Source of the DNA: a bacterium | GTDB lineage: Bacteria; Omnitrophota; Gorgyraeia; Duberdicusellales; 4484-171 | Length of the DNA stretch: 33,980 bases | NCBI GenBank assembly: GCA_021796115.1 | Contig: JAJYOP010000020.1 | Coordinates: forward strand, 1 to 33,980 | Reading direction: 5' to 3' | Shown: in pieces, positions 15,272 to 22,442 of the stretch | How the letters are laid out: each line of letters begins with the position of its first letter | How positions within the stretch are numbered: position 1 is the first letter of the stretch | Notes under the pieces: generated by a model | What the model was told of the DNA's origin: nothing | The model's database searches: none | Seen by the model: the letters and a program-made list of their open reading frames with translations, nothing else | Program-made: the position numbers and the translations under genes

Positions 15272-15697
15272 ATGACGAAAAAAATTTTTATTATTTTTAT
15301 TAATGTGGGAATCTTTTTTACTATGTTTTTGTCATCCCTGGCTTTTAGTCAGGAAACGCTGACTATTACTACTTATTATCCTGCACCATTTGGCGTATAT
15401 CGCGAATTGCAATTATTAAAGCAAGATCATAACCAGGAAATACGTTTAAATAGCGATAATACTGGCAGCGCAAATATTGAATTACGCTCTCTTACTCCAG
15501 TTGCAAGCGGTACGCCGTACATTGATTTCTCAAATGATAGCGTCAGTGATTTTGATTATCGTCTCATTCTCATGGGCGATGGTGATTTTAGATTTCAGGG
15601 TGGAACCGCAACATTTACCGATAACGCAGGAACCAGCTATGCAAACGTTAGGGCCGCGGAATTCTGGATATGCTCCGGCGCTGTAACCGCACCTTAA
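15272..15697 (+). CDS. Secreted protein with N-terminal QETLTITTYYPAPFGVYRELQ motif; function unknown
   Basis: 141 aa; signal peptide followed by the TTYYPxPxGVYxEL motif that I associate with Omnitrophota secreted proteins. Confidence 0.75.
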   Translation: MTKKIFIIFINVGIFFTMFLSSLAFSQETLTITTYYPAPFGVYRELQLLKQDHNQEIRLNSDNTGSANIELRSLTPVASGTPYIDFSNDSVSDFDYRLILMGDGDFRFQGGTATFTDNAGTSYANVRAAEFWICSGAVTAP

Positions 15698-15713: not shown

Positions 15714-16103
15714 ATGCAAAAAATTTTAGAAAAAGCTGATGGCGGAATAAAATTGACCATCGAGCCGTCAGTTTATCCGCTTTCCACGGTTTATGCCGCA
15801 GGTTATATATTTCTGGATAAAGCTTATCTTTACGTGGATAAAAACCCTCAAGGCAAGATAATAATCTGGCTTTTTCCAAAAAAGAAAAACGAAAATTTAG
15901 ATACCTTGGGAATGGATTTTTACAACGAACTTCTTAATTACGCGCATTATTTTAGCAGTCTTAAAGTTAATGCCGGTATCGTGAAAGCGCTGATGCAGAG
16001 AGCCTTATTTTCTACTGCCCCATCCTTGGTGAATGAAGCGGGGAAAAAAGAAATCGAGAATTTAATCGGTGAATTACGGGAAAAAGAAGAATCTGACGAC
16101 TAA
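15714..16103 (+). CDS. hxsD: HxsD-like protein (His-Xaa-Ser system)
   Basis: 129 aa; IKLTIEPSVYPLSTVYAAGYIFLDKAYLYVDKNPQGKIIIWLFPKK resembles HxsD; directly upstream of an HxsB-like radical SAM gene. Confidence 0.7.
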   Translation: MQKILEKADGGIKLTIEPSVYPLSTVYAAGYIFLDKAYLYVDKNPQGKIIIWLFPKKKNENLDTLGMDFYNELLNYAHYFSSLKVNAGIVKALMQRALFSTAPSLVNEAGKKEIENLIGELREKEESDD

Positions 16104-16109
16104 AGATAA

Positions 16110-16331
16110 ATGTACCATTTTTTGCAAAAAGTAGACAATAAATTAAAAATTAAATTAAATATTGAAGTATATAATAAAAGCCTGTTCGATCAAATCAGAA
16201 AAGAAGACCCCCGACGTATAAAATCCGTCAAAACAAAAAACGGCTATTTTTTTGTAGAATTAAATGTTAAGAAATCCAAAGATTATCTGGATTTTTTAAA
16301 TTACCTAATTTATCTTGAAAGAAGCAGATAA
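16110..16331 (+). CDS. Small hypothetical protein between hxsD-like and hxsB-like genes
   Basis: 73 aa; spacers of 6 bp and 3 bp to neighbours; no recognised family. Confidence 0.6.
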   Translation: MYHFLQKVDNKLKIKLNIEVYNKSLFDQIRKEDPRRIKSVKTKNGYFFVELNVKKSKDYLDFLNYLIYLERSR

Positions 16332-16334
16332 ATC

Positions 16335-17720
16335 ATGCCTTCAATAGAAAAAGATACTTTTGCCGTACTACCCTTTAGCAGGCGTCCCATAAAAGATAAA
16401 TACCTTGTTTCTAATTTTTTAGGCGGATGGGATTTTCTGACTAAAGATGAGCTAGGTAAATTGAATTCTTTTAAAATAGAAACTGATACACCGCTTGCCA
16501 TGCGGCTCAAGGAAAGAAGTTTATTGGCTGATGAAAATAATCTGGAAGGACTTATAGAAAAGTATAGGAATTTAAACAGTAATCTATTTATTGACACATC
16601 GCTGCATATCGCTGTAGTTACTACCAGATGTAATTTATCCTGCAAATATTGTCAGACAAAGACAAAAAAAGCTGATATGGGCATTAAAGTAGCTGAACGG
16701 GTTTTAAAATATCTTTTCGATGTAAAAAACACATTAGTAAGCCTTGAGCTTCAAGGCGGAGAGGCATTGCTAAATTGGGAAACTACCAAGTTTCTTATAA
16801 AAAATAGTCGCAAGGTAAATAACGGGCAAAAGAACTTGAAAATCACAATCGTTACCAACCTTACGTTATTAGATGACGAAAAAGCAAAATTTCTTACCGA
16901 CTATGATGTAGAGATTTGCGTTTCTTTTGACGGGCCAAAATATTTACACGATAAAAATCGAATTTTTTCAAAGAACAAAGGTACCTATGATAGCGTAAGC
17001 AAGAACATCGAAAAACTTAATCAGAATTTCAAAAGAAATGTATGTTTATTGCCGACAATTACTAAGCATTCTTTAAAATATTCTAAGGAAATAATTGATG
17101 AATACATAAGGAGAGGTCAGGAAAGCATCGCTCTTCGCCCGGTTAATAAAATAGGCAATGCTTGTGTAAATTGGGACGTTCTCGGCTATTCCGCTGACGA
17201 ATTTATTGCTTTTTATAAAAAAGCAATGGATTATATTTTAGAGTTGAACAAAAAAGGCATTTTTGTAAGGGAAAGAATGGCTAATGTAATTTTGCAAAAG
17301 ATTCTTTCTGCTAAAGATCCGCGCTATGCAGATATGATGAATCCTTGCGGCGCTGGCAGGGCACAGATTGTCTATATGCCGAATGGTGACTGTTTTCCGT
17401 GTGATGAAGCAAGAATGCTTGGCGGGGAAGAATTTCTGTTGGGCAATGTTCTTAGGGATGATTATGAAAAATTGGTAAGTAATGAGAGCCTTTTGCATCT
17501 TCTGGAGATGTCGGTCGTAAATCTCTGGGATGGAAATTCCGCATTTTTTCCCTGGACAGGAACCTGCCCTGTGCTAAACTATTCTCAAGAGAATAATTTC
17601 GTGCCCAAGATACATTGTTCTTTTATGCATAAAATATACAACTTCCAGTTTGACTATTTATTTGAAAAAATTCTGGAAAGTAAAGAGAATCTTGAAATAT
17701 TTAAGCACTGGATAAATTAA
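16335..17720 (+). CDS. hxsB: Radical SAM/SPASM peptide maturase, HxsB-like
   Basis: 461 aa; CNLSCKYC (CX3CX2C), LELQGGEALLNW, ISFDGP-type ICVSFDGPKYLHDKNR, C-terminal CGAGRAQIVYMPNGDCFPCDEARM; HxsD-like partner. Confidence 0.75.
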   Translation: MPSIEKDTFAVLPFSRRPIKDKYLVSNFLGGWDFLTKDELGKLNSFKIETDTPLAMRLKERSLLADENNLEGLIEKYRNLNSNLFIDTSLHIAVVTTRCNLSCKYCQTKTKKADMGIKVAERVLKYLFDVKNTLVSLELQGGEALLNWETTKFLIKNSRKVNNGQKNLKITIVTNLTLLDDEKAKFLTDYDVEICVSFDGPKYLHDKNRIFSKNKGTYDSVSKNIEKLNQNFKRNVCLLPTITKHSLKYSKEIIDEYIRRGQESIALRPVNKIGNACVNWDVLGYSADEFIAFYKKAMDYILELNKKGIFVRERMANVILQKILSAKDPRYADMMNPCGAGRAQIVYMPNGDCFPCDEARMLGGEEFLLGNVLRDDYEKLVSNESLLHLLEMSVVNLWDGNSAFFPWTGTCPVLNYSQENNFVPKIHCSFMHKIYNFQFDYLFEKILESKENLEIFKHWIN

Positions 17721-17732
17721 TAGGAGGAATGA

Positions 17733-18134
17733 ATGAATAAAAAAATATTACGCAAGAAATTTAAAAAAACCATAAAAAGTTTTATTAAGGATGAAGACGG
17801 TTTTGTCAATAAAGACCAAATTTTAAAAATTGGTTTAGGAACAATTGGGTGCTTAAGTATGCTAAGTTCATTGTCTAACGTTTATGCCGGGACAATAACC
17901 GCTAATCCTTGTAGTGCAACAGTTCATGCTAATTTTGATAATACCGCGCATCAGAATGGATTAGATTGTACTGCGGTTGGAACCTGTTACAGGTGTGTTA
18001 TGCATAATAACGCTAGCGCCACTACCCACGTTGATCATTCTGCCGTAACAAATATAAAAGTTTCCGGTGTAGGAACGCTTTCCGGCAAAGGCAGCGCTGA
18101 CCTGAATATTCATTGCCCTCCAAGCTATAGATAG
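17733..18134 (+). CDS. Putative precursor peptide of the HxsB/HxsD-like system; Cys/His-rich core, prepilin-like leader
   Basis: 133 aa; basic N-terminus, FIKDEDGFVNKDQ, hydrophobic segment ILKIGLGTIGCLSMLSSLSNVYAG, then a core with 5 Cys and multiple His; SD aggagg; 12 bp after hxsB-like gene. Confidence 0.6.
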   Translation: MNKKILRKKFKKTIKSFIKDEDGFVNKDQILKIGLGTIGCLSMLSSLSNVYAGTITANPCSATVHANFDNTAHQNGLDCTAVGTCYRCVMHNNASATTHVDHSAVTNIKVSGVGTLSGKGSADLNIHCPPSYR

Positions 18135-18143
18135 TTGCTATAA

Positions 18144-19049
18144 TTATTTGATTGCTAACGGAAGCTTTATTACCCACCAGAGAAAATCTGTATTTGTCAG
18201 GAGCGCACCCAAGAAAACAAAAGGCGAGAAGGAGATACGCATTGGCTTTTGCTCTTTTAGATAAACAATGTTTGTCAGGATATAAAAGATAATCGAGTAA
18301 ACAAGCATATACCTTAAATAGCTGAAAAAATTATCAACAGAGAATGAGTATGGCATCACGATATATCTTAAAGCTAAGCCGGCTATCATTATAAAAACAA
18401 TCAAGAATTTGCTTATTCTGCCAAGGCACTTGGAAATCAGTAAATACCCGCCAAAAAGAAGTATAAAATTTAAAAAGATATTGTTTTGAAGAGGCAAAAA
18501 AGCCATTATCGGTTGTATTACCCAGGATACGCAGAAAGTAATAAAGAAAATTTGGCCGAAAAACAAAATAACTTTTTTAATCGCGGCTTTCTTGAAAACC
18601 ATAGTTTTGTTATGTATAATACCGTATATTGATAAGGGCAAAAGAAACAGGAAGCTAAGCAAAAATGTATTGATAAATAAGGTAAAACAGGAAAGTGGCA
18701 AAATAGCCGAATAACCATTTGCCGGCAAAAGCAAAGAATAGGTAGCAAACAACTTAGCGTCTCCCGGTTTCCATAATCCAGAAAGATAAAAAAGAAAACC
18801 GATGACTAAACCTGCGATTGGATTCAAGATGAGGTGGATGGACATTTTTAAATTGCCCGATAAAAATAAAATAAAGTATAATAATAGAGCTAACGAACCG
18901 ATAAATAAAAGATGGGCGTTTTTTATCTTGCGTTGGCAAATATCCGTATAGATAGTTAGAATTCCCGTAAGAACGATTAAACCGTAAAAATAGATACTCA
19001 TATATTTTGCAATATTATAACATACCTTCATAATATTAAAAACTGACAA
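18144..19049 (-). CDS. A24-family prepilin peptidase-like membrane protein
   Basis: 301 aa, polytopic; catalytic Asp motifs YTDICQRKIKN and KPGDAK; the start may be ATG at 19001 (MSIYFYGLIVLTG). Confidence 0.8.
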   Translation of the reverse strand: MSVFNIMKVCYNIAKYMSIYFYGLIVLTGILTIYTDICQRKIKNAHLLFIGSLALLLYFILFLSGNLKMSIHLILNPIAGLVIGFLFYLSGLWKPGDAKLFATYSLLLPANGYSAILPLSCFTLFINTFLLSFLFLLPLSIYGIIHNKTMVFKKAAIKKVILFFGQIFFITFCVSWVIQPIMAFLPLQNNIFLNFILLFGGYLLISKCLGRISKFLIVFIMIAGLALRYIVMPYSFSVDNFFSYLRYMLVYSIIFYILTNIVYLKEQKPMRISFSPFVFLGALLTNTDFLWWVIKLPLAIK

Positions 19050-19054
19050 ACTAA

Positions 19055-20062
19055 ATGAGTAGTTTATCTGATTTCAAAGTTAACGCGTGCCAGGAGGCTG
19101 ATTTAATCCGGGTAATTGATTTTTTCAAAAAGATGCAAAACAGCACTCTTTATTTCCTGCCGGAAGAAAAAAACGATATCGTAAAGAAGTATAGAAAATA
19201 TAAAGATGGTTCGGAAGGCTTAAGCCTATTTTTGCTTAAGGATAAAAATAAAAATATCATCGGTTGCAGCGGTTATGTGCCGTTTAAGGGGATTTTGTGC
19301 GGACAGGCAATTGATGGTTTTATCGGTTCGGATGCGATAATAGATGCAAACGAAAGAAAGCAGTTTCCATTACTTGCGATGCTCCTTGCTCATTGCTATG
19401 AAAATTTAGTCCGTAAAGAAAAACTTTTTCCTTTAGTCTGCCCGGCGAACAAAGAAGTGTCAAAATCTTTTGAGAGCGTTCAGTGGCAAGATTTTTGCCG
19501 TATTTGGCGGCTCACCAGCGATTTTGCGGTTAAAATGATACCAAAACTGGTTTTTTCAGGTATCGAATTCAAGCAGATTAAACATTTTGATAAAGATTTT
19601 AAATCTTTTTTTGAAAAGATTAAAGAGGAACACCATTTTTTATTAAATACGGATATAAGTTTTCTAAACTGGAAATATTTTTCTGACTCATCTGCCAAAA
19701 ATGTGGTTTTGGCCGCATTCAAGAAGAAAAAAATTTCAGGTTATATAATAGCTGAAAAGAGATACGGCGATATACATATTATCGATATAACTGTAGATTT
19801 AAAATACCCAAGTACGATATTATATTTATTATTTAAATCTTTAGATTATTTTGAAATAAAAGAATTAACTCCGATAGTCTGCTGCCTTAGCCATAAATCC
19901 TATATTGATATTCTGATGCGTGCGGGATTCATACAGAATTGGCGTATAGATTGTTTATTCTTTAAAGTGGGCCTTTTGTTTAGTAAAATAAAGTCCGGTA
20001 ATTTTTATTCATCAAATAAAGATTTATATCATTTCAATGGTTTCGCCCAGCATTTATATTAA
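19055..20062 (+). CDS. GNAT-fold acyltransferase-like protein
   Basis: 335 aa; N-terminal DLIRVIDFFKKMQ...LFLLKDKNKNIIGCSGYVPFK...GSDAIIDANERKQFPLLAMLLAHCYE resembles a GNAT fold. Confidence 0.55.
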   Translation: MSSLSDFKVNACQEADLIRVIDFFKKMQNSTLYFLPEEKNDIVKKYRKYKDGSEGLSLFLLKDKNKNIIGCSGYVPFKGILCGQAIDGFIGSDAIIDANERKQFPLLAMLLAHCYENLVRKEKLFPLVCPANKEVSKSFESVQWQDFCRIWRLTSDFAVKMIPKLVFSGIEFKQIKHFDKDFKSFFEKIKEEHHFLLNTDISFLNWKYFSDSSAKNVVLAAFKKKKISGYIIAEKRYGDIHIIDITVDLKYPSTILYLLFKSLDYFEIKELTPIVCCLSHKSYIDILMRAGFIQNWRIDCLFFKVGLLFSKIKSGNFYSSNKDLYHFNGFAQHLY

Positions 20063-20076
20063 CCTAAAATAATCTT

Positions 20077-20973
20077 ATGAACTTTTCTATAACCGGCATA
20101 GACATTGTAAACAGAAAAAATAATTTTAGTATAGACGATATTCCCGGCTCTATAAAAACGGCCTTCCGTGACAGCGATACAAAAATAGACAATAAAAATT
20201 GCCGCACAGTAGGGATTTTTATCGGCACTACCTTCCATAATTCCGATACCAGAAGAGATAATACCGATAATTACCGTAAAGGCGGAGTAAGAATAGTAAA
20301 CCCTGCGGATTTTCCAAGATGCCTTATCTCTTATCTGGGAGGTCATTTATCCGGCACTTTTAACTTAAAAGGTGCAAACAGCACTATGTCTTCGGGTATT
20401 TCTTCTGGATTTGATGCGCTTATTCAAGCGGCATATTTTGTGGAACAAACAAAGAGAAATAAAGCTTTAGTCGTAGAATTGGAAGAAAAAGTATCGGAGG
20501 ATTTAAAATGTGTTTTAGGCGGCAGTGCCTGCCTTGTAATAGAGAATAAGGCTGGAACCGCAAAAAAGGATAATAATATTTATGGAGATATTTTGGCGAT
20601 AGAGTCATTTTTTGAACGAGAGGGAAAAAACAGCAGCCTCGCAAAAGCAATAGGGAAGGTCCTGGAAAAAAGCAGATTAAACTTGAGAGACATAGATTAC
20701 ATTTTTATTCCGGAAAAACCAAAGACAGCACCTTATAGTCCGGAAGAGAATACATTAAAAGAATTTTCTAATCTTTCAAATATCGAGCCTCCCTACCGTC
20801 TTTTTAAAATAGCCGGGCACAACAAAGGGTTGTTTATGATTGCCAATATTTTGAAAAATATGGATTTTGCTGCTTATCCAGAGAAAAAACCGATTATTTC
20901 ACTTTTTCTTTCCTTAGGCAAAGATAGTAACAGCAGTTCCGCAGTCATCAAAATATACAGAGGGGGTAGATAG
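20077..20973 (+). CDS. Beta-ketoacyl synthase-like protein lacking the nucleophilic Cys (CLF-like)
   Basis: 298 aa; VGIFIGTTFHN, NPADFPRCLISYLGGHLSGTFNLKGANSTMSSGISSGFDALIQAAYFVE; Ile at the expected Cys position. Confidence 0.7.
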   Translation: MNFSITGIDIVNRKNNFSIDDIPGSIKTAFRDSDTKIDNKNCRTVGIFIGTTFHNSDTRRDNTDNYRKGGVRIVNPADFPRCLISYLGGHLSGTFNLKGANSTMSSGISSGFDALIQAAYFVEQTKRNKALVVELEEKVSEDLKCVLGGSACLVIENKAGTAKKDNNIYGDILAIESFFEREGKNSSLAKAIGKVLEKSRLNLRDIDYIFIPEKPKTAPYSPEENTLKEFSNLSNIEPPYRLFKIAGHNKGLFMIANILKNMDFAAYPEKKPIISLFLSLGKDSNSSSAVIKIYRGGR

Positions 20974-20977
20974 GCTT

Positions 20978-21292
20978 ATGAATAAAGAATCCGGCGACAA
21001 AAAAAGCAAAACAAAACTTCCGTCAAAAAGTAAACTTAAAAGCAAAAGCGAAGAGAAGATAAAAAAAGAAATTGTAGAAATAATAAGTAATTTAGGAAAA
21101 ATTCCCAAAGAGAGGATAGATTTGAAAGAGCACTTTACCTCGGCAGGGCTCGATTCTTTTACGATAATCGAGATAATTTTTGCCATCGAAAATAAGTTTG
21201 AAATTGATATTCCTCAGGATAGCCTGGCAAATATTCAGAATGTCGGCCAGCTTATCGAACTCACAAAACAATTAATAGAAAAACGTGGCTGA
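20978..21292 (+). CDS. Acyl carrier protein
   Basis: 104 aa; Lys/Ser-rich N-terminal extension then ACP with GLDSFTIIEIIFAIENKFEIDIPQD. Confidence 0.88.
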   Translation: MNKESGDKKSKTKLPSKSKLKSKSEEKIKKEIVEIISNLGKIPKERIDLKEHFTSAGLDSFTIIEIIFAIENKFEIDIPQDSLANIQNVGQLIELTKQLIEKRG

Positions 21293-22442
21293 AAGAGTTG
21301 TTATCACAGGTTTGGGTTTGGTGACATCGCTCGGCAGTAGCCTTGAGGAATTTTGGCCTAATTTAACGAATGGTAAATCAGGTATAAGCAAAATTTCAGC
21401 GTTCGATACCTCACACTTAGAACGCCATTACGGCGGCGAAATAAAAAATTTTAGCTTTAAACTTCCTGATAATAAAATTTCCGGATATTTGCCCAGATCG
21501 CATCAATTCGCCATCACTGCTTCCAGAAGCGCTTTTAAAGACGCTGCAATAATCAATTCTAAAGAAGCGGGATTAGCTCATGGCACCATAGTATCGGGGC
21601 TGGAGTTTTTAGAGAATAAAAGAAAAAAATTCCCAGAATACCCTGTGTACATGGCTACGGCAAATATTTGTAAAGCGCTTGGGCTAGAGGGAAGTGCTTT
21701 TACTCTATCGGGTGCATGTGCAGCAGGTAATTATGCAATAAGCCTTGCGTATGAAAGAATCAAAAATAGCCAGGAGACTATTATGTTGGCTGGAGCAACG
21801 GATTATTTTTCTTTAGGTACCTTCATCGGCCTTTATCGCGTTTTTTCGCTCGCGCCTTTAAAATGCCAGCCTTTTGATAAAAATCGAAAAGGCCTTATAC
21901 CTGCTGAAGGTTCCGGTATGCTTGTGTTAGAAAGTCTTTCTTCCGCCAAAAAAAGAAACGCACATATTTATGCAGAAATTTTAGGTTATGGCTTAAGTGC
22001 TGACGCATATCACCCGCTCATACCTTTGCAGGAGGGAGTTTTTAATTGTATGGAGAGAGCTCTCAGGGTTACAGGATTATCGCCAGGCGACATAGATTAT
22101 ATTAACGCCCACGGAACAGGTACGGTGCCTAACGATAAAACCGAATGCGCAGCGATAAAAAAAATATTCGGTAAAAAGCGCGCTAAAACTATACCTGTAA
22201 GTTCAATTAAATCAATGCTGGGCCACAGTATGGGTGCAGCTTCTTCCATTGAGGCCATTTCCTGCTGCCTTACTTTAAAGACCGGGGTTATTCCGCCCAC
22301 AATTAATTACGAAACTCCCGATCCGGAATGTAATATCGATTGTGTTCCAAACAAAGCCAGGCGTCAAAAAGTTAAAATTATATTGAATAATTCTTTTGGT
22401 TTTGGCGGTATGAACTGTTCTTTAGTTTTATCGGCATACTAA
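21285..22442 (+). CDS. Beta-ketoacyl-ACP synthase II-like (FabF-like), catalytically intact
   Basis: 385 aa; VITGLGLVTSLG, SGACAAGNYA (Cys), NAHGTGTVPNDKTE (His), IKSMLGHSMGAASS (His); GTG start overlapping the ACP gene by 8 bp. Confidence 0.93.
   Translation: MAERVVITGLGLVTSLGSSLEEFWPNLTNGKSGISKISAFDTSHLERHYGGEIKNFSFKLPDNKISGYLPRSHQFAITASRSAFKDAAIINSKEAGLAHGTIVSGLEFLENKRKKFPEYPVYMATANICKALGLEGSAFTLSGACAAGNYAISLAYERIKNSQETIMLAGATDYFSLGTFIGLYRVFSLAPLKCQPFDKNRKGLIPAEGSGMLVLESLSSAKKRNAHIYAEILGYGLSADAYHPLIPLQEGVFNCMERALRVTGLSPGDIDYINAHGTGTVPNDKTECAAIKKIFGKKRAKTIPVSSIKSMLGHSMGAASSIEAISCCLTLKTGVIPPTINYETPDPECNIDCVPNKARRQKVKIILNNSFGFGGMNCSLVLSAY

Follow-up and report, generated by a model that had tools for sequence, protein, structure and literature searches.

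The window analysed here is a stretch of 33,980 nucleotides (contig JAJYOP010000020.1, positions 1 to 33,980) that carries an Hxs gene cluster; the loci named below from its class belong to the Omnitrophota (for example the G080 contig, which recurs as RA.bin146). Membership in the Hxs system (HxsA/HxsA3/HxsA4, HxsB and HxsD; TIGR03978, TIGR03976, NF038309, NF038313) is indicated by hxsB (16335..17720, + strand), whose 461-aa radical SAM/SPASM maturase product scores 385.8 bits against TIGR03978, above the cut-off of 370. The 129-aa HxsD (15714..16103, +) is recognisable by TIGR03976 at 3.2e-8, but its 33.8 bits do not reach the cut-off of 50. Between these two genes a small protein of 73 aa is encoded (16110..16331, +), for which profile searches returned no family over cut-off; a small protein holds this position in most loci of the Hxs subtype described below. 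Upstream of hxsD lies a recurrent gene for a secreted 141-aa protein with a TYYPAPFG motif (15272..15697, +), to which profile searches assigned no known family. Secreted proteins with TYYPAPYG or TYYPSPFG soon after the signal peptide occur upstream of hxsD in most Omnitrophota clusters and some from Elusimicrobia, and further proteins of this type are encoded at L034 6810-7355 and L095 8685-9449.

The precursor gene, hxsA (17733..18134, +), starts 12 nt past the hxsB stop with a GGAGG ahead of its ATG, and is the single copy found in its genome. It encodes an HxsA3/HxsA4-type precursor of 133 aa that is matched by the HxsA3 profile NF038309 over residues 9-54, the leader region only, at 5.7e-6 and 26 bits; this is below the cut-off of 65, and orthologues score 33-46 bits. 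Relatives carry a His-Xaa-Ser-type C-terminal part. The cluster thus resembles known Hxs systems in its HxsB, HxsD and precursor leader, and differs from them in that HxsA and HxsD fall below their cut-offs and in the extra small protein. Classic Hxs has neither of two further features of the window's subtype, an A24 protease and a leader extension.

The gene for the protease (18144..19001, -) is convergent with hxsA, its stop lying at 18144; the ATG at 19001 is most likely its start, and 19031 is a possible alternative. Alignments identify the 285-aa product as an hxs-type A24 di-aspartyl membrane protease with Asp20 and Asp81 in the motifs YTD20 and KPGD81AK, the latter (PGDAK) taking the place of the family's GxGDxK-type motif. 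The first-pass annotation had described an adjacent A24-type gene with both Asp motifs, and comparison bears this out, since D20, N28, G80, D81, K83 and P93, both catalytic Asp included, are invariant among 21 aligned orthologues. PF01478 found the window protein in a search of the genome at 7.4e-4 and 20.4 bits, under the 26.5 cut-off, and hmmscan of the lone protein against Pfam gave no match at E<=1, for which it is too diverged; the same family matches 15 of the 21 orthologues (best 2.3e-8), several of them above cut-off. The top PDB match of the AlphaFold model (pLDDT 83) was FlaK (3s0x), with probability 0.98, a TMt of 0.55 and a weak Foldseek E-value of 0.68, and FlaK appears to be the only convincing PDB neighbour of the model. 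Like PilD, TadV/CpaA, FlaK and PibD, the protein has two Asp motifs (D20; GD81xK) and membrane helices; it differs from them in lacking a tetra-Cys methylase domain, in its longer C-terminal helical part, in belonging to a clade of its own, and in its linkage to radical SAM peptide genes rather than to pilus genes. Some longer hxs A24 proteins (L079 1762-2904, L093, L095, L101) have an extra KPGMxL...DGLT segment inserted ahead of the last helices, and weak matches in the A24 alignment were seen to PF06847 (two members) and to PF06819, the archaeal A24 C-terminus (one member).

Past the A24 gene, the window encodes a 335-aa protein without a Pfam match, a partial ketosynthase, an acyl carrier protein and a full ketosynthase (19055-22442). 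It is conceivable that the Hxs product receives an acyl group. The 335-aa protein and the partial ketosynthase recur beside the A24 gene of G209 (L190 4612-6506), and similar-looking proteins of 323-334 aa are encoded beside hxsA in L045 and beside A24 in L193.

It had been pointed out from the sequence that the precursor carries Gly23, Asp28 and a hydrophobic stretch, and the open reading frame is as described: the N-terminus reads KDEDG23|FVNKD28, and the hydrophobic stretch that follows ends in VYA|G at residue 53. Residues 1-23 (17733..17801, +), ending in KDED-Gly23, form the leader extension that we propose is cleaved by A24. Residues 24-53 (17802..17891, +) are signal-peptide-like, in that FVNKDQILK, the hydrophobic stretch and VYA would correspond to the n-, h- and c-regions of a Sec signal peptide, and the mature part is proposed to start at about residue 54.

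A table of 44 precursor leaders was compiled by a motif search in which -2 had to be acidic and the proposed P1 had to be Gly or Ala; false matches were discarded, and manual curation added or re-anchored a few sequences. P1 is Gly in 43 and Ala in one, and position -2 is Glu in 43 and Asp once, occupancies that are partly by construction, so that only the choice among the allowed letters is independent. The consensus of the extension, about 23 residues long, is K/R-x-L-x-x-F-L-x-S/D-E-x-G, and conservation spans -11 to +11, including F/L/Y at -6, K/R at -11 and G at +11, which were not selected for. Neither were the basic residues at +4 (36/44) and +9 (39/44). Positions +1 to +10 hold on average 2.75 K/R and 1.07 D/E, positions +11 to +21 are free of charge in 43 of the 44, and the helix begins at about +10. 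An acid at +5, Asp28 in the window, is present in 23/44 overall, namely in all 18 leaders with F, Y or N at +1 (F-type) and in 5 of the 26 others (K-type); 17 of these 26 have an acid at +6. The conservation predicted for the leader was thus borne out for the glycine, and for the +5 acid in one of two subtypes only. An AxA precedes the first His in many precursors, though it occurs 22 times compared with 16.2 +/- 2.8 in shuffled sequences, about two standard deviations above, a margin that neither favours signal peptidase I as the only cleaving enzyme nor speaks against it.

A motif-free search for HxsA, based on its repeats, recovered the same ExG leaders. The only precursors it returned without the motif were a His-rich peptide at L016 (in G205, where A24 is missing), another His-rich ORF in L049, some fragments, few in number, and the classic HxsA of L104, L106 and L107. 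Classic HxsA lacks the extension and starts directly with its signal peptide; judged by this comparison, the A24-type precursor appears to be a classic-like signal peptide with a front piece of about 23 residues ending in Gly.

The distribution of the protease was followed in 246 genomes of the window's class, which were searched for HxsB (counted from 235 bits) and, using a profile built on seven hxs-linked A24 proteins, for the A24 subfamily. HxsB was found in 19, the window-type A24 in 20, and both in 18, seven of which match by construction, as sources of the profile, and eleven of which do not. The protease is therefore present in 18/19 genomes with HxsB vs 2/227 without it (Fisher p 4e-24, genomes treated as independent). 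The sole HxsB genome without A24 is G205, where hxsB lies on a 2.5-kb contig and adjoins a His-rich peptide (L016 2-478) with a different, long N-terminal region and no ExG leader, possibly another type of Hxs precursor. As for the two genomes with A24 but without HxsB, the match in G210 is weak (22 bits), and in G209 the gene lies at the end of a contig, next to genes that other hxs clusters also contain. A decayed HxsB beside the G209 gene was considered and rejected, since the match sits on an intact, different radical SAM gene; the contig ends inside the A24 gene.

When GTDB genomes were scanned with an alignment of HxsB, the loci obtained came from Omnitrophota, Elusimicrobia, Moranbacteria, Spirochaetes, Woesearchaeota and others. 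With an A24 profile of 21 sequences, eleven of whose rows come from these same 36 genomes, an hxs-type A24 was detected in 31/36 genomes found by HxsB; three of the other five have classic Hxs (Proteobacteria L104, Pelosinus L106 and Desulfovibrio L107). One genome of this set, G271, appears identical to G203 of the class sample. Among 20 classic hxs genomes from the class of G275, used as a control, there were two A24 matches of 23 bits and otherwise none, so that no comparable A24 was seen, and each of the 18 visible HxsA has a plain signal peptide and lacks the glycine motif. Taken over Omnitrophota, Elusimicrobia, Moranbacteria and Woesearchaeota, with hxsA unseen in the available stretch for some, an hxs-type A24 is present in 48/51 genomes with the window-type subtype vs 0/22 classic genomes at comparable scores (p 9e-16). 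The first-pass annotation had asked whether an A24 next to hxs-like peptides is recurrent; the association proved genuine, widespread and specific.

Two archaeal loci, L079 and L093, have the operon order A24-hxsD-small protein-hxsB-hxsA, with gaps of about 10 nt or overlaps. Elsewhere A24 lies in the same cluster or, if more distant, usually has radical SAM genes of the extended cluster around it; G101 is an exception, no such gene being seen beside its A24. Extended clusters from Moranbacteria and Omnitrophota (L203, L204, L195, L197) have several more radical SAM genes around A24, of the RVDIKxxFxCNNxCxFCVQG type. The A24-bearing subtype is also found in three archaeal loci (L079, L082 and L093, Woesearchaeota among them), which suggests transfer of this Hxs subtype between domains. 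One genome counts against a role of A24 in leader processing: G252 (L080) has the leader and no hxs-type A24 was found in it; its contig ends within the cluster and carries a canonical PilD.

On a phylogenetic tree, 46 hxs A24 proteins fall on one side of a branch with SH-aLRT 97, apart from canonical PilD and from other archaeal A24 proteins of the same genomes. What looked like an exception, L239, turned out to be the L079 protein picked up twice. Leader subtype maps onto this tree as a single change (97), although both subtypes occur within each of the host families f12, f27 and f39, which argues that A24 and leader moved together across hosts. HxsB identity to the window splits in the same way (40-53% vs 33-38%), so that this mapping cannot tell which of the two, A24 or HxsB, is the leader's partner, and it may be HxsB, not A24, to which the subtype is linked.

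The precursor had at first been likened to an Flp prepilin. Its P1 Gly and +5 acid agree with this, but the stretch past Gly23 is charged rather than hydrophobic, and the Flp profile (PF04964) does not match it. No Flp pilin was found in the source genome either; kinship with Flp/Tad pilins was therefore rejected and the likeness is superficial. Prepilin leaders invariably end in Gly or Ala and are cut on the cytoplasmic side, and prepilins are mainly hydrophobic directly past the cut (PMC10191384). Like these type III signal peptides, the hxs leaders have a basic N-terminus and a Gly/Ala end (43 Gly and 1 Ala), and in the F-type an acidic +5, a position at which prepilins frequently, though not obligatorily, have Glu. 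They differ in the charged +1 to +10 segment with its conserved K at +4 and +9, in the AxA-like end, and in having no 20-25 mainly hydrophobic residues directly past the cut. For cleavage, FlaK seems to require the substrate's membrane helix that lies past the scissile bond (PMC4985597). The charges at +4 and +9 and the helix from about +10 count against a cut by A24.

These features make it very improbable that HxsA is a true prepilin-like protein whose helix, after cleavage at Gly23, is built into a type 4/Tad-like filament by machinery encoded elsewhere. Such machinery could be drawn from the source genome, with its 10 T2SSE ATPase matches over cut-off and 21 N_methyl prepilins, all on contigs other than the window's, and the F-type leaders do have the P1 Gly and +5 acid throughout (18/18). 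The K-type leaders, however, mostly lack that acid, and the prepilins already have a canonical PilD, with a tetra-Cys domain, on another contig. That PilD, together with the missing Flp, also weighs against the possibility, raised earlier, that T4P/Tad pilins elsewhere are the real substrates of the window's A24. As had been noted, no pilus assembly gene is present in the cluster, and no prepilin-like N-terminus was found within the window. A slightly better but still very poor chance is left for the A24 being a genuine T4P/Tad pilus peptidase that hitch-hikes beside hxs in a mobile cluster. Its family membership fits, as do prepilin genes near some hxs loci, but a canonical PilD of its own is present in most of the hxs genomes examined, the hxs A24 proteins form a separate clade, and they follow hxs across phyla while being nearly absent from hxs-free genomes of the class. 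A scan of the hxs clusters for another recurrent prepilin-like substrate turned up only scattered T4P- or TadE-like genes at about seven loci, and that candidate was likewise rejected.

A less remote, though on balance unlikely, alternative is that the ExG extension docks the maturase formed by HxsB, HxsD and the small protein, that signal peptidase I removes the whole N-terminus at the AxA, and that A24 cuts another cluster protein or has another role. Conservation from -11 to +11 is broader than a protease site would call for; the motif may therefore serve, perhaps in addition, as a maturase docking site, and its amphipathic spacing (L-9, F-6, L-5, E-2) would suit one; the AxA lies ahead of the first His in many precursors. 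The small protein and the further radical SAM genes share the distribution of A24, so that co-occurrence alone cannot name the substrate. Against docking, classic HxsB relatives work without any such extension, the Gly/Ala rule at P1 is left unexplained, the scan of hxs clusters turned up no other recurrent prepilin-like N-terminus, and the AxA excess over shuffled sequences is weak.

Cleavage of the HxsA leader by A24 is thus likely on present sequence comparisons, and to the more specific reading, that A24 removes the extension of about 23 residues after Gly23 and leaves a Sec signal peptide, we give a probability of roughly 0.55. Under this reading HxsB, with HxsD and the small protein, would modify the C-terminal part of HxsA in the cytoplasm, and A24, at the membrane with its active-site aspartates facing the cytoplasm, would cut after the glycine and remove the extension. 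The remaining segment, charged, then hydrophobic and ending in AxA, would act as a signal peptide or anchor the product in the membrane. If the segment past the cut is a Sec signal peptide, this would account for the lysines conserved at +4 and +9, which are not expected of a prepilin. Signal peptidase I may make a second cut after Ala53 (VYA|G), which is uncertain given the small excess of AxA. The sequences, the co-occurrence, the operons, the single A24 clade, the conservation and the difference from classic Hxs are observations; what we infer is that HxsA is the substrate, that it is cut after Gly, that the steps follow this order and that a second cut occurs.

The literature searched yielded no account of the removal of Hxs leaders, nor any paper, with few subscription journals covered, linking an A24 or prepilin peptidase to HxsB, Hxs or a RiPP leader. 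Known RiPP leader proteases (PMC10885120) resemble the proposed system in removing a leader beside a radical SAM maturase, and a term search of that 2023 review returned no aspartic, A24 or prepilin protease. More tentatively, with the odds slightly against it, a whole A24 branch would have given up pilus biogenesis to serve as leader protease for radical-SAM-modified peptides in bacteria and archaea, the first aspartic membrane protease so used and part of a two-step process with signal peptidase I. If the A24 model is true, the A24 gene and the ExG leader together provide a genome-mining handle that separates two Hxs subtypes, and the Gly motif offers an exact and simple test of cleavage. 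Cutting the leader of a modified peptide would then be a job not previously described for the A24 family, and a protease family known for pili and archaella would also mature modified peptides, across domains of life.
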